Part shown: positions 10,701 to 55,523 of the stretch, piece after piece
Position numbering within the stretch: position 1 is the first letter of the stretch
Layout: every line of letters starts with the position of its first letter
Assembly: GCF_002995495.1 (NCBI RefSeq)
Contig: NZ_PVZV01000001.1
Location: 372,001 to 436,000, forward strand
Reading direction: 5' to 3'
DNA length: 64,000 nt
From: Actinocorallia populi
Lineage (GTDB): Bacteria > Actinomycetota > Actinomycetes > Streptosporangiales > Streptosporangiaceae
Notes under the pieces: generated by a model
The model's database searches: none
Seen by the model: the letters and a program-made list of their open reading frames with translations, nothing else
Told to the model about the DNA's origin: nothing
Program-made: the position numbers and the translations under genes

Positions 10701-13680
10701 CGCCGCGCCTCGGGCCCCGCAGTGGCCGCCCGCCGACGCCTCCCCGGTCGACCTCACCCGGGTCTACGCGGACCTGGCGGCGCGCGGCTACCACTACGGC
10801 CCGGCGTTCCAGGGGCTGCGGGCACTGTGGACCCGCGGCGACGAGGCCTTCGCCGAGGTGGCCCTGCCCGAGCGGGTCACGGGCGCCGGATCGTTCGCGA
10901 CCGCGCACCCCGCCCTGCTCGACGCCGCACTGCACGCGGCCGTGGTCCGCAACGGCGGCGGCCTCGCCGTGCCGTTCGCCTGGCGCGATGTGACGCTGCC
11001 CGCCAGCTCCGCCAGGAGCCTGCGGGTGCACCTGGTCGCCCGAGACGGCGAGTACTCGGTGAACTGCTTCGACGACGAAGGCGGGTTCGCCGGTTCTGCC
11101 GGCGGCCTCGGACTCCGGCCGATCGGGTCCGGTGACGAGGGCGCCGTCCTCGAACTCGCCTGGACGCCGGTGACCGGCCAGGAGACCCGCAAGGTCGAAT
11201 GGGCCAGGCTCGACTTCCCCGACCTCGACGCGGTCCCGTACCCGATCCCGCGGACCGTCGTGGTCGCCCTCGCCCCGAACGGGGGCGACGTCCCCGCCGA
11301 GGCCGACGAGCTGGCGATCACCGCGACCGGCCTGATCCAGGGCTGGCTGGCCGACCGCCGCTTCGGCTCGTCCCGGCTGGCGTTCGTCACCAGGGGCGCG
11401 CTCGCCGCGACCGAGCGGGAACCGGTGCGCTGCCTGGCCTCGTCCGTCGTGACCGGCCTGGTGCGCGCCGCGCAGTCCGAGCACCCCGACACCTTCCTGC
11501 TCGTCGACCTCGACGACGACCCCGCCTCGGGCAAGGCCCTCGGGCAGGCGCTGGCCTGCGGCGAACCCGAGGTCGCCGTCCGCGGCGGCGAGCTGCTGCG
11601 GCCGCGCCTGCGCGCCGCGAAGGACGACGGCCTGCTCGCCCCGCCGCAGGGCGCGTGGCGGCTGGACGTCACCCGACGGGGCACCCTCGACGACCTCGCA
11701 CTGATCCCGCACCCGGAAGCGGAGGCCGCACTCGGGCCGCGCGAGGTGCGGCTCGAAGTACGGGCCGCGGGCCTCAACTTCCGGGACGTCACCGTCGGCC
11801 TCGGCCTGGTGCCCACCGAGAGGTTCATGGGCAGCGAGGGCTCCGGCGTGGTGCTCGAGGTCGGATCCGAGGTCACCGGGTTCGTGCCCGGCGACAAGGT
11901 GTTCGGCATGTTCGACCGCTCGCTCGGTCCGGTCGCCGTGGCCGACGAACGCATGATCCGGCCGCTGCCCGGCGACTGGAGCCACGCCGAGGCCGCCACG
12001 ATCCCGATCGTCTACATCACCGCCTACCAGTGCCTGGTGGACGTCGCGAACGTCCAGGCCGGGGAGTCGGTCCTGATCCACACCGCGACCGGCGGCGTGG
12101 GCCTGGCCGCGATCCAGCTGGCCCGCCACCTCGGCGCGGACGTGTTCGCCACGGCCGGACCGGCCAAGCAGCCGCTGCTCCGCGCCATGGGCGTCCCGGC
12201 GGATCACATCGCGTCCTCCCGGGAGCTGGCCTTCGCCGGCGAGTTCCGCGCCGCCACCGGCGGCCGGGGCGTGGACGTGGTGCTGAACTCGCTGGCCAAC
12301 CAGGCGATCGACGACTCGCTCGCGCTGCTCGCCCCCGGCGGCAGGTTCGCCGAGATGGGCAAGACCGACCTGCGGGACAAGGCCGTGACCGAGGCCGAGC
12401 ACCCCGGGATCACCTACGAGGCCTACAACATCTACGGCCAGACCCCGGAGCGCATCGGCCAGGTCCTGGACGCGCTGGTCGCGCTGTTCGCGGCCGGCGC
12501 GCTCAGCCACATACCGGTCCGGACCTGGGACGTGCGCCACGGCCGGGTTCCGCTGCGCATGCTCAGCCGGGCCAAGCACCGCGGCAAGCTCGTGCTCACC
12601 ATGCCGCGGGCCTTCGACCCCGGGCGTCCCGCGCTGATCACCGGTGGCACCGGCGGGCTCGGCGCCCGCCTGGCCAGGCACCTGGTGGCCGCCCACGGCG
12701 CGAGCAGCCTGCTGCTGCTCAGCCGGCAGGGCCCGCAGGCGCCGGGCGCGCGGGAGCTGAAGGCGGAGCTGGAGGACCTCGGCGCCACGGTGGCGGTGCT
12801 CGCCTGCGACGCGGGCGACGAGAGCGCGATCGCCAAGGTGGTGGTCGAGTACGCGCCCGGCAGCGTCTTCCACACCGCGGGCGTGCTCGACGACGCCATG
12901 ATCGACCGCCTCACCCCGGCGCAGGTGCGGGCGGTGACGCGGCCCAAGGTCGCCGCCGCCTGGAACCTGCACAGGCTCACGCTGGATCTCGACCTGTCGG
13001 CCTTCGTGCTGTTCTCGTCGGCGATCAGCCTGGTCGGCGGGCCCGGCCAGGCGAACTACGCGGCCGCCAACGCCTTCCTCAACTCGCTCGCCCAGCAGCG
13101 GCGGGCTCAGGGCCTGGAGGCGACGGCGCTGGCCTGGGGCCTGTGGGGGGAGGCGACCGGCATGACCGGCCACCTGTCCGAGTCCGACCACGCCGCGCTC
13201 GCCCGGATCGGACTCGCGCCCCTGCGGACGCGGGACGGGTTCCGCCTCCTGGACGAGGCCCTCCGCTCCGCCTCGTCGCTGCTGGTCCCGATGAGGACCG
13301 ACCTCGCCGGAGTGAGCCCGGGCAGCCGTGCGGCGACGCTCTTCGACGGGCTGGACGGCTCCGGCGCCGGGGTCGCGAAGACCGCCGGGGCGCCGTCCTC
13401 CAGCGGCGCCCGGAAGCAGGACGGCGGCGAGCACACCCCCGCGAGTCTGCTCTCGCTGGTACGCACCCAGGCCGCCGAGGTCCTCGGCCACACCGACGCC
13501 GCCGTGATCGGGCCGGAAGAGGTGTTCAAGGAGCTCGGATTCGACTCTCTCCTGAGCGTCGACCTGCGTAACCGGCTCAACGCCGCGACAGGGCTCCGCC
13601 TGCCCGCGGGCGCGGCGCTCGACCATCCGACACCGCGACTCCTCGTCGAGTTCATGCTCACCAGATTGGACGGCTCGTGA
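7705..13680 (+). CDS. Type I PKS module KS-AT-DH-ER-KR-ACP (fully reducing)
   Basis: 1991 residues. KS with Cys174 in VDTACSASL; AT (about 535-830) with Ser626 in GASQGE, where the usual His beside the Ser is Ala, and YASH at 725-728, the methylmalonyl signature; DH with His922 in HVVQDTVLVP (Gly of HxxxGxxxxP is Asp) and Asp1073 in LLDAALHA; ER with TATGGVGLAAIQLA near 1460; KR from about 1640 with TGGTGGLG and the LDD motif of B-type reductases; ACP Ser1948 in LGFDSLLSV. No docking helices or thioesterase are evident. Used once after the KSQ loader it would make a fully reduced alpha-methyl acyl chain for the type II PKS; iterative use cannot be excluded. Confidence 0.93.
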   Translation: MTGEPRTRGGVDAVAIVAMGCRYPGGVRSPADLWRLVAEGTDATSEFPDNRGWDLPEGMSSTTRGGFLHDADLFDAKFFGISPRESEGMDPQQRVLMEVAWETFERAGLERAGLSESNTGVFVGAMAQEYGPRMYEEHRAGGHRLTGSTPSVASGRIAYHWGLRGPAVTVDTACSASLVAVHLAVRSLLDGECDMALAGGVALMPTPGIFVDFSRQGGLSADGRCHSFSDDACGTAWAEGAGLLLLEREEDAKAKGHRILALIRGSAVNSDGASNGLTAPSRPAQEDVIRRALRRAGLGPHDVDAVEAHGTGTELGDPIEARALAEVYGKGRDPRRPLYLGSFKSNIGHAQAAAGVAGVIKLVEALRAGVLPRTLNVTEPTRHVDWRGGNLALLTEAREWPRGERPRRAGVSSFGISGTNAHVVLEEPPAPVEAPAPSEPAKGPFVWSVSAPSAEALKLQARTLGERLGPEDAPQDVAASLALRSRFAHRGTVVADDIEGLRAGLAKLASGSPVPTAPGRYVSPTVLRTESWPDPTGPVFVFPGQGSQWREMGLALMERSKAFRDGMRACARELAPLTGRRLTDMLRSDDLDRVDVVQPAIFAVMVSLARLWESVGVRPAAVVGASQGEIAAAHIAGALSLADACKVVVLRSKALTELAGTGAMASLPLGVAETRALLDHVDGVGVAAVNAPTATVVSGGVEGIAELMALCESRGVDARRIEVDYASHGPAVDMIEDTVRRELADVTPLVPSVPMYSTLTGSVIDTAATDGGYWFDNLRDTVRFEPVIRRLVERRHRVFIEVSPHPVLTFGVQEVLDESGVKGTVLGSLRRGSGGLAQFLANAAALPDSAGPVDPSPLQPAGRRIELPTYAFDRTRHWAAPKAGGSGGPVRGFGCAATDLPSGQTVVTATIDTARHSWITDHVVQDTVLVPATAFLSLLTEASGGRAITELTLGAALPLTGDGTAELRVMIGEGGTVTVFSRQPDGWLEHASGVLGDPAAAPRAPQWPPADASPVDLTRVYADLAARGYHYGPAFQGLRALWTRGDEAFAEVALPERVTGAGSFATAHPALLDAALHAAVVRNGGGLAVPFAWRDVTLPASSARSLRVHLVARDGEYSVNCFDDEGGFAGSAGGLGLRPIGSGDEGAVLELAWTPVTGQETRKVEWARLDFPDLDAVPYPIPRTVVVALAPNGGDVPAEADELAITATGLIQGWLADRRFGSSRLAFVTRGALAATEREPVRCLASSVVTGLVRAAQSEHPDTFLLVDLDDDPASGKALGQALACGEPEVAVRGGELLRPRLRAAKDDGLLAPPQGAWRLDVTRRGTLDDLALIPHPEAEAALGPREVRLEVRAAGLNFRDVTVGLGLVPTERFMGSEGSGVVLEVGSEVTGFVPGDKVFGMFDRSLGPVAVADERMIRPLPGDWSHAEAATIPIVYITAYQCLVDVANVQAGESVLIHTATGGVGLAAIQLARHLGADVFATAGPAKQPLLRAMGVPADHIASSRELAFAGEFRAATGGRGVDVVLNSLANQAIDDSLALLAPGGRFAEMGKTDLRDKAVTEAEHPGITYEAYNIYGQTPERIGQVLDALVALFAAGALSHIPVRTWDVRHGRVPLRMLSRAKHRGKLVLTMPRAFDPGRPALITGGTGGLGARLARHLVAAHGASSLLLLSRQGPQAPGARELKAELEDLGATVAVLACDAGDESAIAKVVVEYAPGSVFHTAGVLDDAMIDRLTPAQVRAVTRPKVAAAWNLHRLTLDLDLSAFVLFSSAISLVGGPGQANYAAANAFLNSLAQQRRAQGLEATALAWGLWGEATGMTGHLSESDHAALARIGLAPLRTRDGFRLLDEALRSASSLLVPMRTDLAGVSPGSRAATLFDGLDGSGAGVAKTAGAPSSSGARKQDGGEHTPASLLSLVRTQAAEVLGHTDAAVIGPEEVFKELGFDSLLSVDLRNRLNAATGLRLPAGAALDHPTPRLLVEFMLTRLDGS

Positions 13681-14615
13681 AGAACACCGAAGTGACACAC
13701 AGGATCGACGTGGAGGCGTCCGCCGAGGCCGTCTACCGCATCGTGTCGGACGTCGAGCTCTGGCCGCTGTACTTCCCGCCCACGATCCGCGCGGAGCGGG
13801 TCGAACGGTTCGGCTCCGAAGAGCGCATCCAGCTCTGGGCGATGGCCAACGGCGAACTGAGGACCTGGCAGTCGAAGCGCTGGCTGTACCCGCAGCAGTA
13901 CCACATCACCTTCGAGCAGGCCCTGCCCTCGGCGCCGGTCGCCCTCATGGGCGGCGCCTGGTGGATCGACCAGAACGACGACGGCACCTGCTCGGTCCGG
14001 CTGGACCACTACTACCGTGCCGTCGACGACGACCCCGCAGTGCTCGAGTTCATCGCGCGGGCCATCGACGCCAACAGCAGGTCCGAGCTGGAGCACCTCA
14101 AGAGGGCCGCCGAGCGCGCCCTGCGGGAGCCGGAGTTCTCCGTCGACTTCTCCGACGTCGAGACCATCAGGGGTTCGATGGAGGAGGCCTACGACTACAT
14201 CTACGACGTGGCCAGATGGCCGGAGCGGGTGCCGCACGTGGCCCGTCTCGAGGTCACGGAGAACGAGCCCGGCCTGCAGTACATGTCGATGGACACCCGC
14301 TCTCCCGATGGTTCGGTGCACACGACGGTCTCCGGACGGGTCTGCGACCCCAAGGGGCTCATCGTCTACAAGCAGACCGTCCTGCCGGACGCGTTCCTCG
14401 CGCACACCGGCGAGTGGCGCTTCGAGGAGAACGAGCCGGGCGTCATCACCGTGACCGGCCGGCACCGGGTGATCCTCGACCCGGACGGCCTCGCCAAGCT
14501 GCCCCGGCCGCCCGCATCGCCGGAAGCCGCGCGCCAGGCGGTCCGGCACGCGCTGGGCACCAACAGCCGCACCACCATGGCCCGCGCCAAGGAGTTCGTG
14601 GAGGCGAGGAAATGA
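13677..14615 (+). CDS. Didomain aromatase/cyclase (SRPBCC x2)
   Basis: 312 residues forming two START/Bet v1-like halves (about 1-150 and 151-300), the architecture of ActVII/Gris-type aromatase/cyclases that close and aromatise the first ring of C9-reduced polyketides. The N-terminal THRIDVEASAEAVY and the WWIDQNDDGTCSVRLDHYY region match this family. It pairs logically with the ActIII-like ketoreductase, since didomain ARO/CYCs usually act on reduced chains. The GTG start overlaps the PKS stop as GTGA and the stop overlaps the next gene as ATGA. Confidence 0.9.
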   Translation: MKNTEVTHRIDVEASAEAVYRIVSDVELWPLYFPPTIRAERVERFGSEERIQLWAMANGELRTWQSKRWLYPQQYHITFEQALPSAPVALMGGAWWIDQNDDGTCSVRLDHYYRAVDDDPAVLEFIARAIDANSRSELEHLKRAAERALREPEFSVDFSDVETIRGSMEEAYDYIYDVARWPERVPHVARLEVTENEPGLQYMSMDTRSPDGSVHTTVSGRVCDPKGLIVYKQTVLPDAFLAHTGEWRFEENEPGVITVTGRHRVILDPDGLAKLPRPPASPEAARQAVRHALGTNSRTTMARAKEFVEARK

Positions 14616-15766
14616 CCGGCGTGCTCGACCGGTTCAGGGCCTTCGCCCGGGCGGAGCTGACCGGCAAGTCCTCCTATTTCGACAGGCTTCCCGACCAGCC
14701 CACCGCCGAGTCGGCCAGGCTGCACGAGGCCGGGCTGGCCAACTGGTGGATCCCGGCCGAGCGCGGCGGGCTCGGGATCTCGCTCGAGGAGAGCATCGAC
14801 ATCGTCTCCGAGCTCTCCTACGCCGACGCCGGGTTCGCCTTCGGCTCGTTCCTGCCGATCCTCGGCACGACCATGCTCCAGCTGTACGGCTCGGAGCAGC
14901 TGGCCAAGACCTACTTGGGCGGCCTCGTCCAGGACGGCGGCGTCCTGGGCATCCTCGGCAGCGAGGAGGCCGCGGGAAGCGAGCTGGGACGCACGGCCAC
15001 CACGTACCGCTCCGTCGGCGGCGAGCTCGTCCTCAACGGCGAGAAGTACTTCTCCACCAACTCCGACGCGGCCGGCCTGCTGCTGGTCCTGGCCGCCTCG
15101 GCCGACGACGACGGCGACTACGCCGTCGTCGCGGTGCCGCGGGACACCCCCGGGGTCGAGATCGTCAAACGCTGGGACATGATCGGCGTCCGGGGATCGG
15201 GCACCTACCAGGTGAGCCTGCGGGACTGCGCGGTTCCCGGGGCCAACCGGCTGCGCGGCAACGGCCTGCGCAACCTCGAGATCGGGCTGAACGCCAGCCG
15301 CATCCTCATCGCGGCCACCGCGATCGGCGTGGCCCGCAGGATCCGCGACCTGGCGCTCGACTACGCGGCGGCCAAGCAGGTCAAGGGCGCGCCGCTGACC
15401 GACAACGCGGTGTTCGCCGCCAAGCTCGGGCAGATCGAGGTCGCCATCGACGTGATGCGCAACCAGTGCCGGGCCGCGGCGGCCGAGTTCGACGGGTACA
15501 TGGCCGAGCCCGACGCGGCCGCCGTCCTGACCCGGGTCGGCACGATGCGCTCGGCCCTCGCCGCGAAGATCTACTGCGGCCGGGCCGGCCACGAGGTCGG
15601 CGACGTCGGCTCCCAGCTGTTCGGCGGTCTCGGCTACACCCACGAGCACCCGATCGGCAAGCTCGTGCGGGACCTGCGCTACGTGAGCATCGTCGAAGGC
15701 GGTGACGACGTGCTGCGCGACCTCATCTACACCCGTTTCGTCCTGCCTCCCGCGAAACGCCGGTGA
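14612..15766 (+). CDS. Acyl-CoA (or acyl-ACP) dehydrogenase
   Basis: 384 residues with the three-domain acyl-CoA dehydrogenase fold: SEEAAGSE and FSTNSDAAG in the FAD-binding beta domain, QLFGGLGYTHEHPIGKLVRD in the C-terminal helical domain, and the catalytic Glu in the VEGGDD segment that replaces the usual YEGT. It therefore looks like a true alpha,beta-desaturase rather than a monooxygenase, in contrast to the acyl-CoA-dehydrogenase-fold protein at 221-1333. Translationally coupled to the priming PKS operon, it could introduce a double bond into the alkyl starter to give a 2-methyl-2-enoyl unit; that role is inferred. Confidence 0.8.
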   Translation: MTGVLDRFRAFARAELTGKSSYFDRLPDQPTAESARLHEAGLANWWIPAERGGLGISLEESIDIVSELSYADAGFAFGSFLPILGTTMLQLYGSEQLAKTYLGGLVQDGGVLGILGSEEAAGSELGRTATTYRSVGGELVLNGEKYFSTNSDAAGLLLVLAASADDDGDYAVVAVPRDTPGVEIVKRWDMIGVRGSGTYQVSLRDCAVPGANRLRGNGLRNLEIGLNASRILIAATAIGVARRIRDLALDYAAAKQVKGAPLTDNAVFAAKLGQIEVAIDVMRNQCRAAAAEFDGYMAEPDAAAVLTRVGTMRSALAAKIYCGRAGHEVGDVGSQLFGGLGYTHEHPIGKLVRDLRYVSIVEGGDDVLRDLIYTRFVLPPAKRR

Positions 15767-46024: not shown

Positions 46025-46993
46025 TCAGGTGGTGGAAGGGGCGAGGGAGCGGGCGGCCTGGCGGACGTCGAGGCCGGGGAGGGGGCCGAAGCCGACGATC
46101 GGGGTGAGGCCCGCGTCCAGGTAGTGGTGGAGGCGGGTGCGGCAGGCGGCGGGAGAGCCGTGGACGATGAGGTCGTCGACGACCTCGTCGGGGATGGCGG
46201 CCGCCGCCGCGGCGCGGTCGCCGGCCGCCCAGGACTCGTGCAGGGCCTTGAGCCGCGTGCCGCGGCCGAGCCAGTCGTGGAAGGCCCGGTAGGCGGGGAC
46301 GGTGAGGTAGGCGGCGAGGAGGCGGCGGCCGATCACCCGCGCGAGGTCGGCGTCCTCGGTGGGCAGGACGCAGATCGGGGCGAGCAGCTCCTTGTCGTGG
46401 CCGAACTCGGCGCGCACGGCCCGCACGTCGTCCGGGGACACCCAGTTGGTGATCGCGGCGTCGGCTTCCCGGGCGGCCAGGCGGAGCATCCCGGGACGCA
46501 GTGCGGCCAGCGCGATGGACGGAGGGGTCGGGGGCGGCCGCTCCAGCCGGAAGCCGCGCACGCCCAGGCCTCCGTCGGTCACCTTCTCCCCGGCCAGGGC
46601 GCGGCGCAGGAACCTCAGGGTGTCGCGGACCCGCCGGTACGGCTCGGTGTAGGGGATGCCGTTCCAGTTCCGTACGACCCCGGGCGAGGACGCGCCGATG
46701 CCGAGCGTGAACCGGCCGGGTGCCAGGTCGGCGAGCGTGGCGGCCTGCTGGGCGAGCAGTGCCGGCCCCCGCGTGTGGACGGGGACGATGGCGGTGCCGA
46801 GCCGCAGGCCCGGTGCCCATTGCGAGGCCAGGGCCAGCGGCGTGAAGGCGTCGGGGCCTGCCGTCTCCACCGACCACAGGCCGGTGTAGCCGAGCGCGGG
46901 CAGCGCCCGGACCAGGTCCCGGTGCCGCGACACCGGGCCCGGCGCCGCGGCGGTGGGCAGGGCGAGGGCCCAGCGGCGGTCTTCGGCGGTCAC
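46025..46993 (-). CDS. LLM-class (F420/FMN-dependent) oxidoreductase
   Basis: 322 residues with the luciferase-like TIM barrel: LWSVETAGPDAFTPLALASQ, LGTAIVPVHTRGPALLAQQA, GRFTLGIGASSPGVV. The family uses F420 or FMN for hydride transfer or monooxygenation. GGAG precedes the GTG, 10 bases after the KSIII-like stop, so it is the last gene of the operon. Cofactor and substrate cannot be told. Confidence 0.85.
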   Translation of the reverse strand: MTAEDRRWALALPTAAAPGPVSRHRDLVRALPALGYTGLWSVETAGPDAFTPLALASQWAPGLRLGTAIVPVHTRGPALLAQQAATLADLAPGRFTLGIGASSPGVVRNWNGIPYTEPYRRVRDTLRFLRRALAGEKVTDGGLGVRGFRLERPPPTPPSIALAALRPGMLRLAAREADAAITNWVSPDDVRAVRAEFGHDKELLAPICVLPTEDADLARVIGRRLLAAYLTVPAYRAFHDWLGRGTRLKALHESWAAGDRAAAAAAIPDEVVDDLIVHGSPAACRTRLHHYLDAGLTPIVGFGPLPGLDVRQAARSLAPSTT

Positions 46994-47003
46994 GGGTCTC
47001 CTC

Positions 47004-47909
47004 TCAGACTCGCTCGAAGGCGACGCAGGTCCAGTAGTTGTGGCCGGTGGACAGGCCGAGCACGCGGCCGCCCGCGGGGACCTCGTCCTCGACCTCGGCG
47101 AGGTTGACCACGAGGTCGGCGGCGAAGCAGTGCCCGTTCTGCTCGGTACGGGTGACGAACCGGTCGAGGTCGAGCCGTCCGCCGGCGGCCAGCAGCCGCA
47201 GCACGGTGGTGCCGACGTTGCCGGCCACGACGATCGGGTAGTCCTCGCGGTCGCCGCCCGGGCCGGGCGCGAAGAACCCCTCGGTGGCGCGCTGGATGCC
47301 GCCGACGGTGCCGCGGACCATGGCGATGGAGTCCTCGGCCGGGTCCAGCGAGTGCATGGTGTGGTCGGCCGCCTGGACGACGGGCCCGACCCGCCAGCCC
47401 TCCGCGGGCGCGTCGGCCGACACCATGACGGACGCGGCCGCGTCGCTCATGAGGCAGGTGCCCGCGTCGATCAGGCGTGAGCCGCCGCCCCAGACGTCGG
47501 TGGTCACGACCAGGACGTCGCGGGCGTCGCCGGTGAGGACGTGGTTGCGCGCGACCCGCAGGAGGGCGCCGAAGTTGGCGCACACGTTGGCGGTGACGAG
47601 CATCAGCGGGACGTGGTCGGCGCCGATCGCCTCGGCGAACCTGTCCGGGTCGCGGCGCAGGTCGACCCGGTCGTCGATCGACTCGCACGCGTAGAGGACC
47701 AGGTCGGGTCGCCGGGCGGCCCGCCGCAGGGTCTCGGCGGCGCTGCGGGCGGCGATCCGCCAGGGCGCCTCGTCGGTCCGGTAGAAGCCCGCGATCTTCT
47801 CCTTGGCGAGCCGTTCCCGTTCGGCGGCCGACGGCTCGGGCCCGTCGCCGGGCCAGACGTCCTTGTCACCGAACGCCCAGGCGGAGGCGTGCATGTGGGC
47901 GGCGCTCAT
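47004..47909 (-). CDS. KSIII-like thiolase-fold protein of the aminoacyl-ACP operon
   Basis: 301 residues with a thiolase-like fold and likely nucleophile Cys110 in VTANVCANFGALL. The C-terminal motif is NGHCFAADL, where FabH has GNTSAAS, and no HxAN is present (VVAGNVGTT instead). The altered triad resembles acyl-transferring KSIII relatives more than decarboxylative FabH. It is shorter than FabH at the N-terminus. It could condense or transfer the aminoacyl group from the operon's ACP. It overlaps the SRPBCC stop as ATGA. Confidence 0.65.
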   Translation of the reverse strand: MSAAHMHASAWAFGDKDVWPGDGPEPSAAERERLAKEKIAGFYRTDEAPWRIAARSAAETLRRAARRPDLVLYACESIDDRVDLRRDPDRFAEAIGADHVPLMLVTANVCANFGALLRVARNHVLTGDARDVLVVTTDVWGGGSRLIDAGTCLMSDAAASVMVSADAPAEGWRVGPVVQAADHTMHSLDPAEDSIAMVRGTVGGIQRATEGFFAPGPGGDREDYPIVVAGNVGTTVLRLLAAGGRLDLDRFVTRTEQNGHCFAADLVVNLAEVEDEVPAGGRVLGLSTGHNYWTCVAFERV

Positions 47910-48388
47910 CGGACCGCCTCCGCCTGCTCGCGACCGTCGACCAGGATGGTGAAGGCGGCACCCGAGCCGAACAGGCCGCGCATGATGGCGGTCATGGTGT
48001 TCTCGAACGCCTCGATCGCGATCGGGTCGAGCAGCTCGGCGACCGAGGGCATGCCGAGGTCGAACGCCGACTCGAAGACCACGAGGGAGCCCGCGGCGGC
48101 GGGTTCGACCCGCCAGGAGCCGTGGAAGGAGTCGAGGTCGCCCTCCAGCTGCTCGAAGGCCAGGGAGCGCGAGCCGGGGCCGGGGGCGTCGAGCTGCGTC
48201 CAGCGCATGATGCCCTCGTAGAAGCGCACCTCCCAGAAGGACGTCTGCCGCCCGTCGGCGTCCCTCTTCACCTCCAGGCGCCGGATGACGTCGGTGTGCT
48301 CGGTGAAGGCCTCGAAAGCCGACACGCGTGCGAAGACGTCGTCCGGTGCGAGGTCGGGAACGAGGGTGCGGAGCATGAAGTGCTTCAT
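47906..48388 (-). CDS. SRPBCC-family protein of the aminoacyl-ACP operon
   Basis: 160 residues with a polyketide-cyclase-like SRPBCC pattern: FARVSAFEAFTEHTDVIRRL, SFWEVRFYEGIMRWTQLD, and a long C-terminal helix starting AFENTMTAIMRGLFG. Related small proteins bind or dehydrate/cyclise carrier-bound intermediates. Both ends overlap neighbours, so it belongs to the operon. Confidence 0.75.
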   Translation of the reverse strand: MKHFMLRTLVPDLAPDDVFARVSAFEAFTEHTDVIRRLEVKRDADGRQTSFWEVRFYEGIMRWTQLDAPGPGSRSLAFEQLEGDLDSFHGSWRVEPAAAGSLVVFESAFDLGMPSVAELLDPIAIEAFENTMTAIMRGLFGSGAAFTILVDGREQAEAVR

Positions 48389-49446
48389 GCCGGGGTCCCT
48401 TCTTTCGTCGTGGTCTTCATCAGTGCCGCCAGGCTCAGGGGCTCGGTGCGGGCGTGGCCCGTGGTGCGGACCCAGTACTCGGCGGTCGTGCGCAGGACGG
48501 CCAGGGGGTCGTGCGCCGCGCCGTGGCGCTCCAGCAGCGCGCCGCTGGAGGGGAAGGGCTCGGGCGAGGACAGGTAGGGGGCGACGTGCTCGAAGATCCC
48601 CGTCACCAGGTGCCGCAGCTTCGGCGGGATGCCGGGCAGGAAGACGGGTTTGATGAGCCGCTCGTACATCTCCAGCGGAACGACCCGGGGGCGGCTGAAC
48701 GGCCGGCTGATCTCGTCGCCGAGCTCGGTCAGCACCCCGACGAGCGCGTCGAAGGTGATGGCCCGCTCGCCCGCGGTGATCCACACCTCCGCGCGGTCGG
48801 GCAGTCCTCCGCGTGCCGCGGCCGCGATGACCCGGGCGGTCAGGTCCTGCGGCACGAAGTCGACGAGGCTTCCGCGCTCGGCGGGGAAGGCCGGGAAGAG
48901 GCCCTGCAGGATGGCTCCGCAGGTGCGGTGCAGACCCTGGAACTCGCTGATCTCCCCGGTGCGCGCGTCCCCGGCGACGATGGAGGGCCGCAGGATCGTG
49001 TACCCGGATCCCAGCTCGCGCACCTCGCGTTCCGCGGCGCGTTTCGACTCGGCGTAGGGCATCGGGCGGGCCGCGCCGCCGGGCCGTTCGAGGGCGTGCA
49101 CGAAGGCGGTGCTCACGTAGTGGAAGGGCGCCTGCGCGCGCAGGGCCAGGTCCATGAGGGTGCGGGTGCCGGCCAGGTTGGTCTCCGCCAGCTCCTCCAC
49201 GGGGCTGTTCAGCCTGGTGTCCGCGGCGCAGTGGACCACGCCGCCGATCCGGCGGGCGAGGTCGTCGTAGGCGGCGGCCGAGAGCCCGAGGCGTTCGGCC
49301 CGGACGTCGCCGCGCACGGACGCGACGCCGTCCAGGGGCCGGTCGCGCACCAGGGCGAGGTACTCGTCCGGGCGCAGCACGCGACGCAGCGCCGTCCCGA
49401 CCACTCCGGACCCGCCCGTCAGCAGGAAGGGTTTCTTCGTCGTCAT
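48385..49446 (-). CDS. Extended SDR / thioester-reductase-like Rossmann protein
   Basis: 353 residues: LLTGGSGVVGTALRRVL nucleotide loop, HCAADTRLNSPVEEL, YVSTAFVHA, and YAESKRAAE as YxxxK. The order and the FVPQDLTARVI region resemble the NAD(P)-binding domains of thioester reductases (carboxylic-acid-reductase and NRPS R-domains). In an ACP-dependent operon it may release the product as an aldehyde or alcohol; a plain epimerase/dehydratase is the alternative. Confidence 0.7.
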   Translation of the reverse strand: MTTKKPFLLTGGSGVVGTALRRVLRPDEYLALVRDRPLDGVASVRGDVRAERLGLSAAAYDDLARRIGGVVHCAADTRLNSPVEELAETNLAGTRTLMDLALRAQAPFHYVSTAFVHALERPGGAARPMPYAESKRAAEREVRELGSGYTILRPSIVAGDARTGEISEFQGLHRTCGAILQGLFPAFPAERGSLVDFVPQDLTARVIAAAARGGLPDRAEVWITAGERAITFDALVGVLTELGDEISRPFSRPRVVPLEMYERLIKPVFLPGIPPKLRHLVTGIFEHVAPYLSSPEPFPSSGALLERHGAAHDPLAVLRTTAEYWVRTTGHARTEPLSLAALMKTTTKEGTPA

Positions 49447-50429
49447 CGTGCGTCCTCCTCGAAGGCGCGGCCCAGGTCGGCGACGATCTCGGCCGCGGGC
49501 CGGACGCGGTCCACACGCGCGCACGACGTGCCCGCGTACATCGCCATGTGGTCGATCCGGCCCCGGGTGGCCCGGGTGGGCGCCGCCGAGGAGAACCGGT
49601 AGACGGGATGGCGGGTGCGGCCCACCGTGGTGAAGCCGATGGGAGTGCGGGGGAACCGGCCGGGGGCGTCGGTGACGGCGCTGCGCAGGACGCGGTGCCG
49701 CCGCCCGGGCCAGCCGAGGTCGAAGACACCGGTGACGACCGTGTCGGCCGCGTCCGCCTCGACCACCCGCCGCCGGTACAGGGGGTGGGCGTCGGACTCG
49801 GCCGCGGCGATGAACGCGGTCCCGCTGCACACCCCGTCGGCGCCCGCCTCCGCGGCGGCCGCCACCGCGTCGGCCGTCGTGAGGCCGCCCGCCGCCAGCA
49901 GCACGGCCTGCGGATGCCGGGTGCGCACCTCGCGCAGCAGCGGGAGCAGCGGGCGGTCGCCGAGCAGGCGGCCACCTGCACCCGCCCCTTGCAGGACCAC
50001 GGCGTGCGCGCCGCCGAGCAGAGCGGCGTCTGCGTCGTCGGCCGTCCCCACCTGGACGATGAGGCGGCGTCCCGCGGTCCTCAGCCGCGCGGCGAGTCCC
50101 GAGGGGAGCAGGCCGAACCCGACGACGAGAATCCGGGAGGGCGTCGTGGCCAGGATCTGCTCCACCTGCGCGGCCAGGATCCGGGCTCCGGCGGCCTCGG
50201 GCACCAGGCCGACGCCCGCCGGGCCGGCGGTCAGATCGGTGAGGGACCTGAGCAGCACGGCGAGGTCGGCGCCGGTGGCCTTGTAGGCGCCGACGACCCC
50301 GAGACCGCCGGCGCGGCCGACGGCGGCGGCCAGGCCGGGCCCGGCCACGCCGCCCATCCCGGCGAGCATGACCCCCCGGTCCAGGGCCAGGCCGCGGGTG
50401 TCCCGGCGGGCCCGCGCCGTCGCCGTCAC
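49443..50429 (-). CDS. Nitronate-monooxygenase-like FMN protein
   Basis: 328 residues forming a TIM barrel of the 2-nitropropane dioxygenase/nitronate monooxygenase family: MLAGMGGVAGPGLAAAVGRA, FGLLPSGLAARLR, AHAVVLQGAGAGGR and LLAAGGLTTADAVAAAAEAG. In class I enzymes the sequence after QG ends AGGH; here that His is Arg154, so classical nitronate oxidation may be lost. The GTG start overlaps the ligase stop as GTGA. Position after an N-oxygenase invites a nitrogen-oxide role; an enoyl-reductase role is also possible. Confidence 0.7.
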   Translation of the reverse strand: MTATARARRDTRGLALDRGVMLAGMGGVAGPGLAAAVGRAGGLGVVGAYKATGADLAVLLRSLTDLTAGPAGVGLVPEAAGARILAAQVEQILATTPSRILVVGFGLLPSGLAARLRTAGRRLIVQVGTADDADAALLGGAHAVVLQGAGAGGRLLGDRPLLPLLREVRTRHPQAVLLAAGGLTTADAVAAAAEAGADGVCSGTAFIAAAESDAHPLYRRRVVEADAADTVVTGVFDLGWPGRRHRVLRSAVTDAPGRFPRTPIGFTTVGRTRHPVYRFSSAAPTRATRGRIDHMAMYAGTSCARVDRVRPAAEIVADLGRAFEEDAR

Positions 50430-51295
50430 GCCCGCGCTCCCGGGTACGCCCGGACGGCGTCGCAGGCGGCGTCCCAGTCCCCGGCGAACCGGGTCTGCAG
50501 CGCGTGCAGCCACCGTTCGACACCGAAGGCGACGCAGGCGGTGTGCGCGGTCTCGCCCTCCACCCGGAGGTCGGCCCGTTCGCCGAAGAAGTTGCGGTGG
50601 TGGTTGACCGAGGCGATCGCGACGCCGTCGGCGGTGACGAACTCCTGCTTGACGGGGAAGAGCCGCTGCATCACCGCCCGCGACCCGTCGGGATCGAAGA
50701 ACGGGTCGGTGGCGACCTCGGTGGCCAGGTCCAGGCCCAGGTGGTCGGCGAACTCTCCGATCAGGGCCGCGTGCCGCTCCAGGTGGGCCTGGACGTCCTC
50801 GGGCCCGCCGATGGCGACGATCTCCCGCATGGTGAACCCGTGCAGCCGCCGCAGGCCCTGGTACTCCTTCTCGCGCCGGAAGCACTGCGCGATCGTCGTG
50901 GCCTTCACCGTCCGGTCCAGCCGTGCGCCGCGCAGAGCCGAGTAGAGGTTGTAGCAGGCGGCGGACGGCAGCAGGAGGGCGGTGGAACCCAGCCGGTCGG
51001 GGCTCAGCGAAGCGTCGTCGCCGCGGCCGGGCAGGGTGTCGGGGTCGGAGGTGTCGACGGGCGCGGCGGCCAGGGCGAGGTGCGGGAAGTTGACGAAGTA
51101 GTCGAAGTCGGCCAGGTCGGCGGCGCTGGCCAGCGGCGGGCAGAGCACCCGTTCGGCTCCGGCGCGGTCGGCCCAGCCGGTGAAGACGGCGTCGAGCGCG
51201 TCGCGGAGCCGGACCGCCGGGGAGCCCAGGGTGACCAGCCCGGCTTCGACGTGCACGGGCGGGAAGGCGCGGGAGAGCGCCGAGGGAGTGGTCAC
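50426..51295 (-). CDS. Class II aaRS-like amino acid:[carrier protein] ligase
   Basis: 289 residues with class II synthetase motif 2 (CFRREKEYQGLRRLHGFTMRE) in split form and motif 3 (ACVAFGVER). No tRNA-binding domain. Cys114 (SAACYNLYS), Glu158 (FTMREI) and Cys254 (AHTACVAFG) fall where the zinc ligands Cys-Glu-Cys of the Bradyrhizobium Bll0957-type ligases lie, and SVNHHRNFFG matches their family. These enzymes adenylate a small amino acid and load it on a carrier protein. The ACP gene directly upstream (4-base overlap) is the natural partner. The amino acid cannot be read by eye; Gly or Ala are known for relatives. Confidence 0.82.
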   Translation of the reverse strand: MTTPSALSRAFPPVHVEAGLVTLGSPAVRLRDALDAVFTGWADRAGAERVLCPPLASAADLADFDYFVNFPHLALAAAPVDTSDPDTLPGRGDDASLSPDRLGSTALLLPSAACYNLYSALRGARLDRTVKATTIAQCFRREKEYQGLRRLHGFTMREIVAIGGPEDVQAHLERHAALIGEFADHLGLDLATEVATDPFFDPDGSRAVMQRLFPVKQEFVTADGVAIASVNHHRNFFGERADLRVEGETAHTACVAFGVERWLHALQTRFAGDWDAACDAVRAYPGARA

Positions 51296-51558
51296 GGTAC
51301 TGCCTTTCCGGCCAGGAAGGCCGCGTTGATCCGGTTGAGGGTCCGGAAGTTCATCGCGTCGATCCGCTTGGGGTCGATGCGCTCGCCGGTGAGCTCCTCG
51401 AGCAGGAAGAGGAACTCCACGAAGCCGACGGAGTCGAGGATCCGGTCCTCGACCAGGTCCTGGTCCCAGTCGAGGGAGTCCAGCGCGTCGTTGCGCCGCC
51501 GGAGGAAGTCGATGACCCGCTCCATGTCCGGCGACGCCGTGTGGTCAGACCGCGACAC
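51292..51558 (-). CDS. Acyl/aminoacyl carrier protein
   Basis: 88 residues with phosphopantetheine site Ser43 in ILDSVGFVEFLFLLEE. It overlaps the AurF-like gene by 14 bases upstream and the ligase by 4 bases downstream, so all three are made together. It differs strongly from the polyketide ACP at 1551 and is probably dedicated to the aminoacyl pathway. Confidence 0.85.
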   Translation of the reverse strand: MSRSDHTASPDMERVIDFLRRRNDALDSLDWDQDLVEDRILDSVGFVEFLFLLEELTGERIDPKRIDAMNFRTLNRINAAFLAGKAVP

Positions 51559-52432
51559 CCTCGCCTCCCCACGGCGTCCCGAAGATGCCCGCGGACACGA
51601 AGAACCTGTCGATCCTGGCCATCACCCTGCGGTGGATCTCCTCGCGGGCCGGGTGGGCCATGGCCTCGCGCCGCACCTCCAGCGGCCGGGCGACGCCGGC
51701 GTCGCGGTAGGCGTGCGGGTTGTAGAGGCTGCGCACGGAGTAGGCCATGTAGGCCTTGACGTAGTCCTCGATCTCCGCCGTCCGGCCCTGCCCGTGCAGC
51801 TCCACGGCGTGCGCGTACAGGTGCCGGAGGAACTGCTTGCCGAAGGCCACGTGCCGGCTCTCGTCGTGGTGGTGCACCGAGTGCAGCTCCTGGAGGATCT
51901 CCGGCAGCCGCCGGTCCCTGCCCATGCGGCTGTTGTAGTAGTCGAAGATCTCCTCGAAGATGAGGATGCGGGCGAAGACCACGACGTCCTCCCACTCCTC
52001 CTCGAACACCTCGCGCTGGTACGGGGTGGAGACATCGGGGTAGATGCCGCCCGCGTACCGGTTGCAGAACTCGGCGAAGAACCACATGTGCGCGTTCTCC
52101 TCGCCGACGAAGTGGTGCAGGTACTCGGAGTACGCGGCGAACCGGGGCGTGTGGATCCGGCGGGACACCTCGATCATCAGCTCCCGGATGCCGTGGACGT
52201 GGAGGCTGAAGAAGTTCACGGTCTCCCGCCGCGCGAGCTCCCTGAGGACCCGCTCGTCGCCCACCAGGCCGGTGCCGTGGACGGTGAGGTGCTCCGGGCT
52301 CATCCACCAGGAGCCGTCGTCCATGCGGTCGGGCCAGGTGAAACGGGTGTACGGGTTGTAGTGGTCGTGCCGGGATTTGGCCGAGAGGCGCTCGACCATC
52401 TCCGCGAAGGCCGGCTCTTCCTTCACACGCAT
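51545..52432 (-). CDS. AurF-like non-heme diiron N-oxygenase
   Basis: 295 residues. The ligand pattern fits AurF/CmlI: Glu70, Glu112-x-x-His115 in EENAHMW, Glu160/161 in IFEEIFDYY, and His187-x3-Glu191-x2-His194 in HHHDESRH. Such enzymes oxidise arylamines or amino groups to hydroxylamine, nitroso or nitro. As first gene of the operon ahead of the ACP and aminoacyl ligase, it may act on carrier-bound amino acid. ATG at 52432 has only a weak ribosome-binding site; longer starts at 52501 are possible. Confidence 0.82.
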   Translation of the reverse strand: MRVKEEPAFAEMVERLSAKSRHDHYNPYTRFTWPDRMDDGSWWMSPEHLTVHGTGLVGDERVLRELARRETVNFFSLHVHGIRELMIEVSRRIHTPRFAAYSEYLHHFVGEENAHMWFFAEFCNRYAGGIYPDVSTPYQREVFEEEWEDVVVFARILIFEEIFDYYNSRMGRDRRLPEILQELHSVHHHDESRHVAFGKQFLRHLYAHAVELHGQGRTAEIEDYVKAYMAYSVRSLYNPHAYRDAGVARPLEVRREAMAHPAREEIHRRVMARIDRFFVSAGIFGTPWGGEGVAV

Positions 52433-52540
52433 CGTTGTCCCGATCCTTGCCTTGTACGTGTTTGTCAACTTCCGTGCCGCTCTGTCGGCGGCGTGGATCA
52501 CACCGCCCAGCGGGTGTGCTGAAAGTCTCGGTTAGGCTGG

Positions 52541-52637: not shown

Positions 52638-55523
52638 ATGGCGCGACCGGCCCTGCGGATCGACGTGCTGGGATCTCTGAGGGTCAACGTGGACGGATCG
52701 GTCCGCCCCGCGCCGCCGCGGGTGGCGGACCTGCTGGCGATGCTCACCCTCCGGCCCGGCGGCCAGCTGTCCACCGACGCGCTCATCGACGGGCTGTGGC
52801 AGGGCGCACCGCCGCGCACCGCCGCGAAGGTGCTGCAGGGCAGGATCCACGAGCTGAGGCGGCTGCTCGGCGACTCCGACCGCGTCCAGCGCGGCATCAG
52901 CGGCTACACGCTGCTCGTCGAACCCGACGAGCTCGACGCCACCCGTTTCGCCGCCCTCGTCGCCGAGGCCGACGGCGCCGCCCGGCACGGCCGCGTCGAC
53001 GACCAGGTGGAGCTGCTGCGGGCTGCCGACGGCCTCTGGCGCGGCCCCGCCTACCAGGACCACACCGCCATCGACCTCGTCCACGACGAGGCGATGCGCC
53101 TGGAGGAGCACCGGCTGGAGGCCGTCGAGTCGCGCATCGACGGCGACCTGGCCCAGGGCCACCACCACCTGGTGGTCGCCGAGCTCGCCGTGCTGAGCCG
53201 CCGCCACCCCGTCCGTGAGCGGTTCTGGAAGCAGCTGATGCTGGCCCTGTACCGGTGCGGCAGGCAGGCCGACGCGCTGCAGACCTACCAGGACGCGCGC
53301 CGGGTGCTCATCGAGGAGTTCGGTCTCGACCCGGGCCCGGAGATGCAGGAGCTGGAGCAGCGGATCCTCGCCCAGGACCCCGCCCTGGCCGCGGACGTGC
53401 CCGCGCCGCCCCGCGAGACGGCCCGCCCGGCCCCGCCCGCGAAACCGGCGGCCAACGCACCGAACGAGCTGCCCCGCGACATCGCCCTCACCGGCCGGGA
53501 CGCCGAACTGGAGGCGATCCACACGTCCCTGACCTCGGGCGGCTGCCCCGTCGTCGCGCTCAACGGGCCCGGCGGGACGGGCAAGTCGGCACTGGCCGTC
53601 CACGCCGCCCACCGGGCATCGGACCACTTCCCCGACGGGCGGCTCTACATCAACCTGCACGCCACCACACCCGGCGTCGCCGTCCGGCAGCCGCTGGAGG
53701 TCCTGCAGCGGCTGCTGCAGACGCTCGGCGCGGCCAACCCGCCGCAGAGCGAGGGAGAGGCGGCCGGGATGTTCCGCTCACTCACCCACGAGCGGCGGCT
53801 CCTGTTCGTCCTCGAGGACGCCGCGGACCTCGCCCAGGTCATCCCCCTGCTGCCCAACGGGGCCGGTTGCGCCGTGATCGTCACGAGCCGCCGCCCGCTC
53901 GCCGGCCCCGAGGTCACCACCGCGCTGCGGCTCGGGCCGCTCGGCGAAACGGCCGCGGTGGAGCTGCTCGGGCACATGCTCGGCGCGGACCGCGTCGGCG
54001 CGGACGGCGCCGCCGCCCGCCACATCGTCGAGCTGTGCGACAGGCTGCCGCTGGCGATCCGGATCGTCGGCGCGCGGCTGCTGGCCAACCCGGTGCAGCC
54101 GCTGGCGTCGTTCGCCGCCCGGCTCACCGACGAGCGGCACCGGCTGGACGAGCTCGAGGACGCCGACCTCGCGGTGCGCACGAGCATCGCGACGGGCTAC
54201 GACTACCTGCGCAGGCACCCGCGCGGCGGTGACGCCGCCGCCCTGTTCGCACACCTGGGCCTGTGGTTCGGAACCCACGTCACCGCCTCCACCGCCGCCG
54301 TCCTGCCCGGCTGGCCGACCCACCGGGCCGAGCGCGCGCTGGGCAGGCTCGTGGAGGCCCAGCTGCTGCACTGCCCGAGCCCCGACCGCTACACCCTGCA
54401 CGACCTGGTCCGCCTCTTCGCCCAGGAGCAGGCGCAGGACCAGTTGACCGGACCCGAACGCGCCGAGGTTGTCGAACGGACCCTGCACTACCAGCTCGAC
54501 ACCGTCCGCAACGCCGTCCTCACCCTCAGCCCGGGCCTGGCGAGCCGGCTGGAGTTCGGCCCCGGCTCCCCCTCCCACCCGGAGCCCGCCCGTCCGGGCC
54601 GTTCCTTCGCCGACCGCGCCGAGGCGGTCACCTGGATCCGCGGCGAGCGCGACAACCTGCTCGCCGCCGCGCAGCACGCCGCCGAACTGCCGCCCCCGGC
54701 CTGCCTGGTGACCGTCGGCCTCGCCGCCGCGCTGATGTACACCTGCGAGATGCACGGCTGGTTCACCGACCTGGAGACGCTCGCCGAACACGCCCGCCGG
54801 ATCGCGCTGCGGACGGAGGACGAACGCAGCCTGGCCCTCGCCCTGACCTGCTCCGGGCACGCCGCCAACGGGCTCGGCCGGGCCAGGCAGGCCGTCGTCC
54901 GGCTGGAGCAGGCGCTGGAGACCTGGCGGCGGATCGAGGACCGCAGCGGCGAGGCGCTCACCCTGACCTACCTGGCCTACACCTACCTCACCGCCGGGGA
55001 CGTGGACAGGTCCATGGGGTACTGCCGGCAGAGCCTGACCCTGTACGAGCGGCTCGGCGACCGGCTCGGCCACGCGCTGGCCCTGCTGTTCCTCAGCAAC
55101 CAGCTCCAGCAGCACGGCATGTACGACCAGGCGCTCACCGCGAACTCCACCGGCACGGCCCTGGTCGAGGGCCTCGACGAACCGCGCATGCTCGGCATCG
55201 CCCGCGGCATCCGGGCCGCCGTCCACGCCCGTTGCGGCCGGTACGACGAGGCACTGCGCTGCTTCGAGGAGGCCCTGGAACTGCTCACCCAGAGCCAGGA
55301 CCGCTACCAGCAGGCGCGCTGCTTCTGGGGGATGAGCCAGGTGCGGGACGCCCAGGGCCGGGCCGGCGAGGCGCTCGCGGAGCGGCACCGGGCCCTGGAC
55401 ATCCTCCAGGAGCTGCGCCTGCTCGGCGCGGAGGACGCGCTGCTGGTCGCGGACCGGCCGGAGGAGATCACCAGGCTGCTGCCGGAGTTCCTGGCCACCG
55501 AGCCGTCACACCGGCAGCTTTGA
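52638..55523 (+). CDS. AfsR-type large SARP (HTH-BTAD-NB-ARC-TPR)
   Basis: 961 residues: winged helix (1-95), bacterial transcriptional activation domain (about 100-250), Pro-rich linker, NB-ARC ATPase with Walker A NGPGGTGKSALAV near 310, and TPR repeats (about 700-940). Divergent from the AurF-like operon and beside its heptad box, so the likely activator of that operon. Its 3' end overlaps the converging MMPL gene by 18 bases. Confidence 0.92.
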   Translation: MARPALRIDVLGSLRVNVDGSVRPAPPRVADLLAMLTLRPGGQLSTDALIDGLWQGAPPRTAAKVLQGRIHELRRLLGDSDRVQRGISGYTLLVEPDELDATRFAALVAEADGAARHGRVDDQVELLRAADGLWRGPAYQDHTAIDLVHDEAMRLEEHRLEAVESRIDGDLAQGHHHLVVAELAVLSRRHPVRERFWKQLMLALYRCGRQADALQTYQDARRVLIEEFGLDPGPEMQELEQRILAQDPALAADVPAPPRETARPAPPAKPAANAPNELPRDIALTGRDAELEAIHTSLTSGGCPVVALNGPGGTGKSALAVHAAHRASDHFPDGRLYINLHATTPGVAVRQPLEVLQRLLQTLGAANPPQSEGEAAGMFRSLTHERRLLFVLEDAADLAQVIPLLPNGAGCAVIVTSRRPLAGPEVTTALRLGPLGETAAVELLGHMLGADRVGADGAAARHIVELCDRLPLAIRIVGARLLANPVQPLASFAARLTDERHRLDELEDADLAVRTSIATGYDYLRRHPRGGDAAALFAHLGLWFGTHVTASTAAVLPGWPTHRAERALGRLVEAQLLHCPSPDRYTLHDLVRLFAQEQAQDQLTGPERAEVVERTLHYQLDTVRNAVLTLSPGLASRLEFGPGSPSHPEPARPGRSFADRAEAVTWIRGERDNLLAAAQHAAELPPPACLVTVGLAAALMYTCEMHGWFTDLETLAEHARRIALRTEDERSLALALTCSGHAANGLGRARQAVVRLEQALETWRRIEDRSGEALTLTYLAYTYLTAGDVDRSMGYCRQSLTLYERLGDRLGHALALLFLSNQLQQHGMYDQALTANSTGTALVEGLDEPRMLGIARGIRAAVHARCGRYDEALRCFEEALELLTQSQDRYQQARCFWGMSQVRDAQGRAGEALAERHRALDILQELRLLGAEDALLVADRPEEITRLLPEFLATEPSHRQL

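Follow-up and report, generated by a model that had tools for sequence, protein, structure and literature searches.

The stretch analysed here, 64,000 nucleotides (nt) from Actinocorallia populi (NZ_PVZV01000001.1, positions 372,001 to 436,000; hereafter the window, whose numbering we use), carries on its minus strand a run of eight open reading frames (ORFs) at 46025..52432. The first encodes a ferritin-like diiron N-oxygenase of the AurF family (295 aa; 51545..52432; Pfam AurF, 93.2 bits against a cut-off of 29.6), for which an alternative GTG start is possible at 52501. It overlaps by 14 nt the gene of a stand-alone acyl carrier protein (ACP; 51292..51558), which has Ser43 in an LDS motif and scores 18.5 bits against PP-binding, below the cut-off of 20.8. 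Overlaps of 4 nt then join the ACP to a class II aminoacyl-tRNA synthetase (aaRS)-like amino acid:carrier-protein ligase (50426..51295; Pfam tRNA-synt_2b, 36.2 bits, cut-off 29.3), the ligase to a nitronate monooxygenase (NMO) or FabK-like flavoprotein with the motif GAGAGGR (49443..50429; Pfam NMO, 128.1 bits, cut-off 28), the NMO to a stand-alone thioester-reductase-like protein (TR; 48385..49446; Pfam NAD_binding_4, 114.2 bits, cut-off 20.1), the TR to an SRPBCC protein (47906..48388; Pfam Polyketide_cyc2, 42.7 bits, cut-off 27.4) and the SRPBCC gene to that of a 301-aa ketosynthase III (KSIII)-like protein (KS3; 47004..47909; Pfam ACP_syn_III, 26.5 bits, cut-off 24). Only one of the seven junctions is gapped, by 10 nt, between KS3 and the operon's last gene, which encodes a luciferase-like monooxygenase (LLM)-class F420-type oxidoreductase (46025..46993; Pfam Bac_luciferase, 197.8 bits, cut-off 27.9; NCBIfam TIGR03841 F420_Rv3093c, 293 bits, cut-off 213.65). 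The tight packing and the families that an earlier reading of this DNA (the original prediction) had named are thus borne out by the ORF coordinates and by Pfam and NCBIfam profiles, the ACP falling just under its Pfam cut-off. That prediction had also held that no known pathway has this composition. The claim fails for the first four genes, which look like the published glycine-nitronate kind, whereas the second half looks like an unusual addition.

The residues on which the first three proteins would depend are kept throughout their families. In alignments that include the window's own sequence and, for the oxygenase, a few duplicate loci, the oxygenase residues E112, H115, E160, H187, H188, E191 and H194 are present in 103 of 103 sequences and E70 in 102 of 103. 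Ser43 of the ACP is kept in 100 of 100 sequences, and the Cys-Glu-Cys zinc ligands expected of the ligase proved to be C138, E158 and C254, conserved in 105 of 105. The metal ligand set of N-oxygenating ferritin-like diiron oxygenases, with a seventh His, is described in the relevant part of PMC12154687, and the window oxygenase has this set as assigned by alignment position, not by superposition. Its AlphaFold model is helical (mean pLDDT 91.2); phmmer against the PDB gave no match at E 0.01, and the oxygenase profile gave two weak R2-like matches only. The ligase aligns with Bll0957 (3mey; E 1.2e-25). With the Bll0957-type ligases it shares the class II core, the Cys-Glu-Cys residues and an adjoining ACP gene, but it is linked to a diiron oxygenase and, at 122.8 bits, stays under the cut-off of 357 for the NCBIfam equivalog PRK07080.

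Using an oxygenase-alignment scan, we sampled the best 80 of at least 202 oxygenase relatives, a set that leans towards close kin, and counted neighbouring genes within 4 kb of the oxygenase. The search for oxygenase, ACP and Bll0957-like ligase triads that the original prediction had proposed found all three together in 77 of the 80 loci, or in 74 of 77 without the duplicates (L068 = L038, L079 = L057, L105 = L052). Three loci have an incomplete triad: L074, in which the ACP was not called, L132 and L143. The triad loci span several phyla, with Actinomycetota, Acidobacteriota, Melainabacteria and the alphaproteobacterium Tistrella among them, and the co-occurrence is more than chance. Action of the oxygenase on free arylamines was considered and rejected, as the triad would argue for a carrier-bound substrate.

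From the ligase side, the gene was detected in 42 of 345 genomes of the order, the window's own included. Twenty stretches were fetched around the better matches, covering 21 of the 46 ligase places outside the window, and 16 of them contain the oxygenase, which is missing in L041, L042, L045 and L053. L041, L042 and L045 have the ligase and ACP without a diiron oxygenase, and next to the ligase stand genes of a single cluster (DAO family in L041), perhaps another route to an oxidised aminoacyl-ACP. In four further loci (L039, L040, L043 and L111) the triad is accompanied by an R2-like protein (assigned by profile in L039), another ACP and a protein family whose L039 member has no Pfam match. 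On a Streptomyces clavuligerus plasmid (L060, 9944-12128), genes for the ligase, a small ACP-like protein and a phosphopantetheinyl transferase lie together, with the oxygenase absent from the stretch fetched.

Beyond the triad, the sampled loci divide into two branches. An LCM-type methyltransferase gene is present in 48 of the 80 and an NMO gene in 11, both occur together in none, and 21 have neither; with duplicates removed, 47 and 9 of 77 loci carry the methyltransferase and the NMO, respectively. These labels cluster on a quick tree of 100 oxygenases (L038, L079 and L105 left out; long branches flagged, including L068 and L069), requiring 12 changes against a shuffled mean of 40.9, and none of 200 shuffles gave a value as low. 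Judged by its genes, the window is on the NMO branch. Its oxygenase belongs to a starred set of eight that includes L037 and L068, both with an NMO, and L064, L065, L066, L067 and L069. Within this set it groups with the last five (97, starred), in whose fetched stretches no NMO was found. All five have a PAD_porph deiminase gene next to the ligase, and four (L065, L066, L067 and L069) have a condensation gene; the stretches concerned are L064 2867-3886, L065 8523-13069, L066 7476-13013, L067 2400-8032 and L069 4549-9080. A beta-eliminating-lyase gene was also seen in L066 and L067.

L037 has seven of the window's eight genes in the same order, plus a methyltransferase gene (oxygenase-ACP-ligase-NMO-methyltransferase-TR-SRPBCC-KS3). 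This methyltransferase gene and an isochorismatase-like gene of L037 are both absent from the window operon, and the L037 methyltransferase had no match in the window's own genome in a search that lacked a positive control. More distantly, L054, L055 and L056 join the triad to TR-like and KSIII-like genes without an NMO.

The window NMO departs from its relatives in a conserved motif. In the EAGGH motif, the His, which we take to be the catalytic base of NMO, is replaced by Arg: the window has GGR where all 19 other cassette NMOs, two of them duplicates, have GGH. With L038 and L079 excluded, the window NMO deviates at 6 of 50 positions that are otherwise invariant, the motif His being one of them; in a smaller set the figure is 11 of 79. 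The window copies of the oxygenase, ligase and ACP, by contrast, break 0 of 24, 0 of 22 and 0 of 2 family-invariant positions. As a candidate nitronate-consuming enzyme the operon thus has an NMO over the Pfam cut-off but with Arg in place of the motif His. Relatives with an NMO would be expected to denitrify, so the N-oxidised end product of the original prediction is no more than possible; because the window NMO has lost the motif His, its step may be slowed or changed.

The TR retains the motifs TGGSGVVG, VSTAF and YAESK, that is, a nucleotide-binding motif and Tyr-x3-Lys, and aligns with reductase domains that include the reductase MxaA (4u7w); it scores 93.3 bits against TIGR01746, under the cut-off of 213. 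Reductive release by the TR, as in the original prediction, is plausible. Homologues of the TR and SRPBCC proteins were searched for in plasmid records and the fetched loci. Both occur in L037, L131, L147 (Nostoc) and L148 (Streptomyces BHT-5-2), and they adjoin on a S. clavuligerus plasmid. In the plasmid records the TR has matches in 59 and the SRPBCC protein in 10, with 5 of ten listed TR records among the SRPBCC ten; SRPBCC matches thus often come with a TR match, but not the reverse. Class-III aminotransferase genes lie beside the TR or SRPBCC relatives in L131, L147, L148, L149 and L151. In L147, a Nostoc plasmid, genes for a TR-like protein, nitric oxide synthase, aminotransferase, SRPBCC and GNAT proteins stand together (7977-15446), a group that is possibly an N-N bond cluster.

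For the KSIII-like protein, the residues present speak about its function. Decarboxylating KASIII (FabH) uses Cys-His-Asn, including the His of the HQAN motif. KS3 has Cys110, His260 and Asp265, lacks the HQAN His and reads AGNVG where its KS3b relatives have HNVN, at 18-20% identity to aligned relatives; a decarboxylating FabH identity was rejected, as the required residues are missing. The part of PMC9573744 that treats ChlB3 gives its triad as Cys113-His296-Asp301, which KS3 matches in residue kinds and His-Asp spacing. As in the CerJ and ChlB3 acyltransferases, KS3 has a Cys and a His with an Asp five residues on, a likeness of residue pattern and not of alignment to CerJ or ChlB3; it differs from them in its length of 301 aa and in that the HQAN His is absent as well. 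KS3 is thus a probable acyltransferase, and acyl transfer is likelier than the condensation put forward in the original prediction, because its Cys-His-Asp residues are of the CerJ/ChlB3 type and the HQAN His is missing. Its structure model is poor (pLDDT 67.1) and was set aside. The window type of KS3 is rare: the 345 genomes of the order gave two matches, in its own genome and in that of L037, and among 394 genomes of the class it was found only in its own and, at 26% identity, in one more. KSIII-like genes with the Cys and the His-Asp pair do lie beside methyltransferase-branch triads in 12 of the 80 loci.

We reasoned that the operon is probably a variant of the glycine-nitronate carrier-protein cassette. 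Its composition and conservation, its branch, the intact ligands, the lost NMO His and the Cys-His-Asp residues of KS3 are supported at the level of sequence. In the 2021 enteromycin work of He and Ryan, glycine is said to sit on a carrier protein, and our sample includes Streptomyces albireticuli (L082, methyltransferase branch), which we take to be an enteromycin producer. As the enteromycin chemistry is described in relevant passages of PMC9967187 and PMC11035981, a diiron oxygenase gives a glycine-derived nitronate, whose fate is either O-methylation or denitrification to nitrite by an NMO. Compared by description, these cassettes share with the window a diiron oxygenase making the nitronate, followed by a methyltransferase or an NMO, and the alternation of the two genes among the sampled loci mirrors the O-methylated or denitrified nitronate of those passages. 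The window differs in having added TR, SRPBCC, CerJ-type KSIII and LLM genes, in its lost NMO His and in the absence of a methyltransferase gene. That an amino acid is loaded on the ACP and N-oxidised by the diiron enzyme, as the original prediction had it, gains support from the recurrent triad, the kept zinc and diiron ligands and this precedent.

From these comparisons we infer the substrate, the nitronate, the order of the steps after the oxygenase and the product. The aaRS-like ligase would adenylate a small amino acid (glycine is the likeliest) and load it on the ACP, where the diiron enzyme would oxidise the carrier-bound alpha-amine to a nitronate. On the NMO branch, such a nitronate would normally undergo oxidative denitration to an alpha-oxo (glyoxylyl) thioester and nitrite, a step that may be slowed or changed in the window. 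The TR with its SRPBCC partner would release an aldehyde, the CerJ-type KS3 would pass the acyl group to an acceptor without extension, and the LLM enzyme may carry out a final hydride transfer. Taken together, the operon is most likely a rare reductive or transfer variant, in which reductive release and acyl transfer stand in place of, or alongside, the usual methylation or denitration end.

Several observations weigh against this interpretation. The TR lies within 4 kb of the oxygenase in none of the 80 loci, and the amino acid may be other than glycine, because the ligase scores so far below the PRK07080 cut-off. The akazaoxime cluster, in the account given in part of PMC9967187, loads its glycine by a nonribosomal peptide synthetase (NRPS). 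Finally, simple denitrification fits poorly with the loss of the NMO His and with sister loci that lack an NMO. A rather unlikely alternative is that the nitronate is kept: nitroacetyl-ACP would either be released by reduction, as nitroacetaldehyde or 2-nitroethanol, or be passed on by the CerJ-type enzyme, and the NMO would be degenerate or repurposed. The broken positions of the NMO set against the unbroken ones of the triad, its missing His, the lack of an NMO in the fetched stretches of the five loci whose oxygenases group with that of the window, and the make-up of L054-L056 all favour it. However, the NMO frame is intact and overlaps both neighbours, other NMOs break more positions with the His kept (L062, 14 of 58 in the larger set; L049, 25 of 93 in the smaller set), and an anionic nitronate may not need the His base. 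We also consider it unlikely that the operon is a discrete carrier line in which the aaRS-like ligase replaces an NRPS adenylation domain and the undenitrified glycine nitronate is released, or transferred by the KSIII-like protein, as an intact nitro or nitronate C2 unit; if this were true, the products would be nitroacetaldehyde, 2-nitroethanol, and nitroacetyl esters or amides.

Distinctly unlikely, in our estimate, is a dissociated form of the logic of the ham and pvf clusters (fragin, valdiazen), in which a carrier-bound amino acid is N-oxygenated, an N-oxidised amino aldehyde is reductively released and the NMO serves as the nitrite source for an N-N bond. As far as described in part of PMC11659414, the ham cluster has genes for an AurF-like N-oxygenase whose substrate is tethered valine, for NRPS-like and polyketide-cyclase-like proteins and for an aminotransferase, and its pathway has an aldehyde intermediate. 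Compared by description, as were HamC, HamD and HamE, none of which is in the oxygenase tree, these systems share with the window an AurF-like oxygenase, a carrier-bound amino acid, a proposed aldehyde stage and an SRPBCC or cyclase-like protein; where they use an NRPS, the window has a separate ligase, ACP and TR, and it also has an NMO. The ham/pvf NRPS-type enzyme carries a reductase domain. Also in favour, TR and SRPBCC relatives accompany the class-III aminotransferase in L131, L148 and L147, the last with nitric oxide synthase, and an SRPBCC relative in L149 has as neighbours genes annotated as VlmB-like and as SerRS, together with one that has an LPG_synthase_C domain. By contrast, the eight genes include no aminotransferase and no haem-oxygenase-like or cupin profile match (their surroundings were not searched for these), and most plasmid TR matches are unrelated, with 59 TR records against 10 for SRPBCC. 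That the operon is a decaying, productless remnant of a larger cluster seems highly improbable: the two L037 genes missing here, the lack of an own-genome match to the L037 methyltransferase and the broken NMO motif would fit decay, but the eight frames are open and nearly all overlapping, and the invariant residues of the oxygenase, ligase and ACP are intact. Azoxy biosynthesis was rejected for the operon as a whole; no fitting VlmA- or SerRS-type profile match was found among the eight genes (VlmO was not searched for).

Divergent from the operon, on the plus strand at 52638..55523, lies an ORF whose family, AfsR/SARP-like, was named by eye and which is possibly a pathway regulator; L037 has a weakly similar gene (26% over 461 aa), likewise divergent. 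A separate polyketide-type cluster occupies 1551-35498 of the window, with large polyketide-synthase-like ORFs and genes for KSIII-like, acyltransferase, polyketide cyclase, acyl-CoA dehydrogenase, carboxyltransferase, NDP-hexose 2,3-dehydratase and P450 proteins. Elsewhere in the genome, four more AurF-family genes are found (contigs C2, C6, C7 and C8); the ligase search matched the window copy only.

With the operon read as a variant of the glycine-nitronate cassette, these data suggest that the glycine-nitronate module occurs widely and has been combined anew with differing downstream halves: methyltransferases, an NMO, condensation and deiminase genes or, here, a reductase and an acyltransferase. 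The window operon and L037 would be concrete test cases for a nitro-C2 unit that is released or transferred by discrete enzymes.

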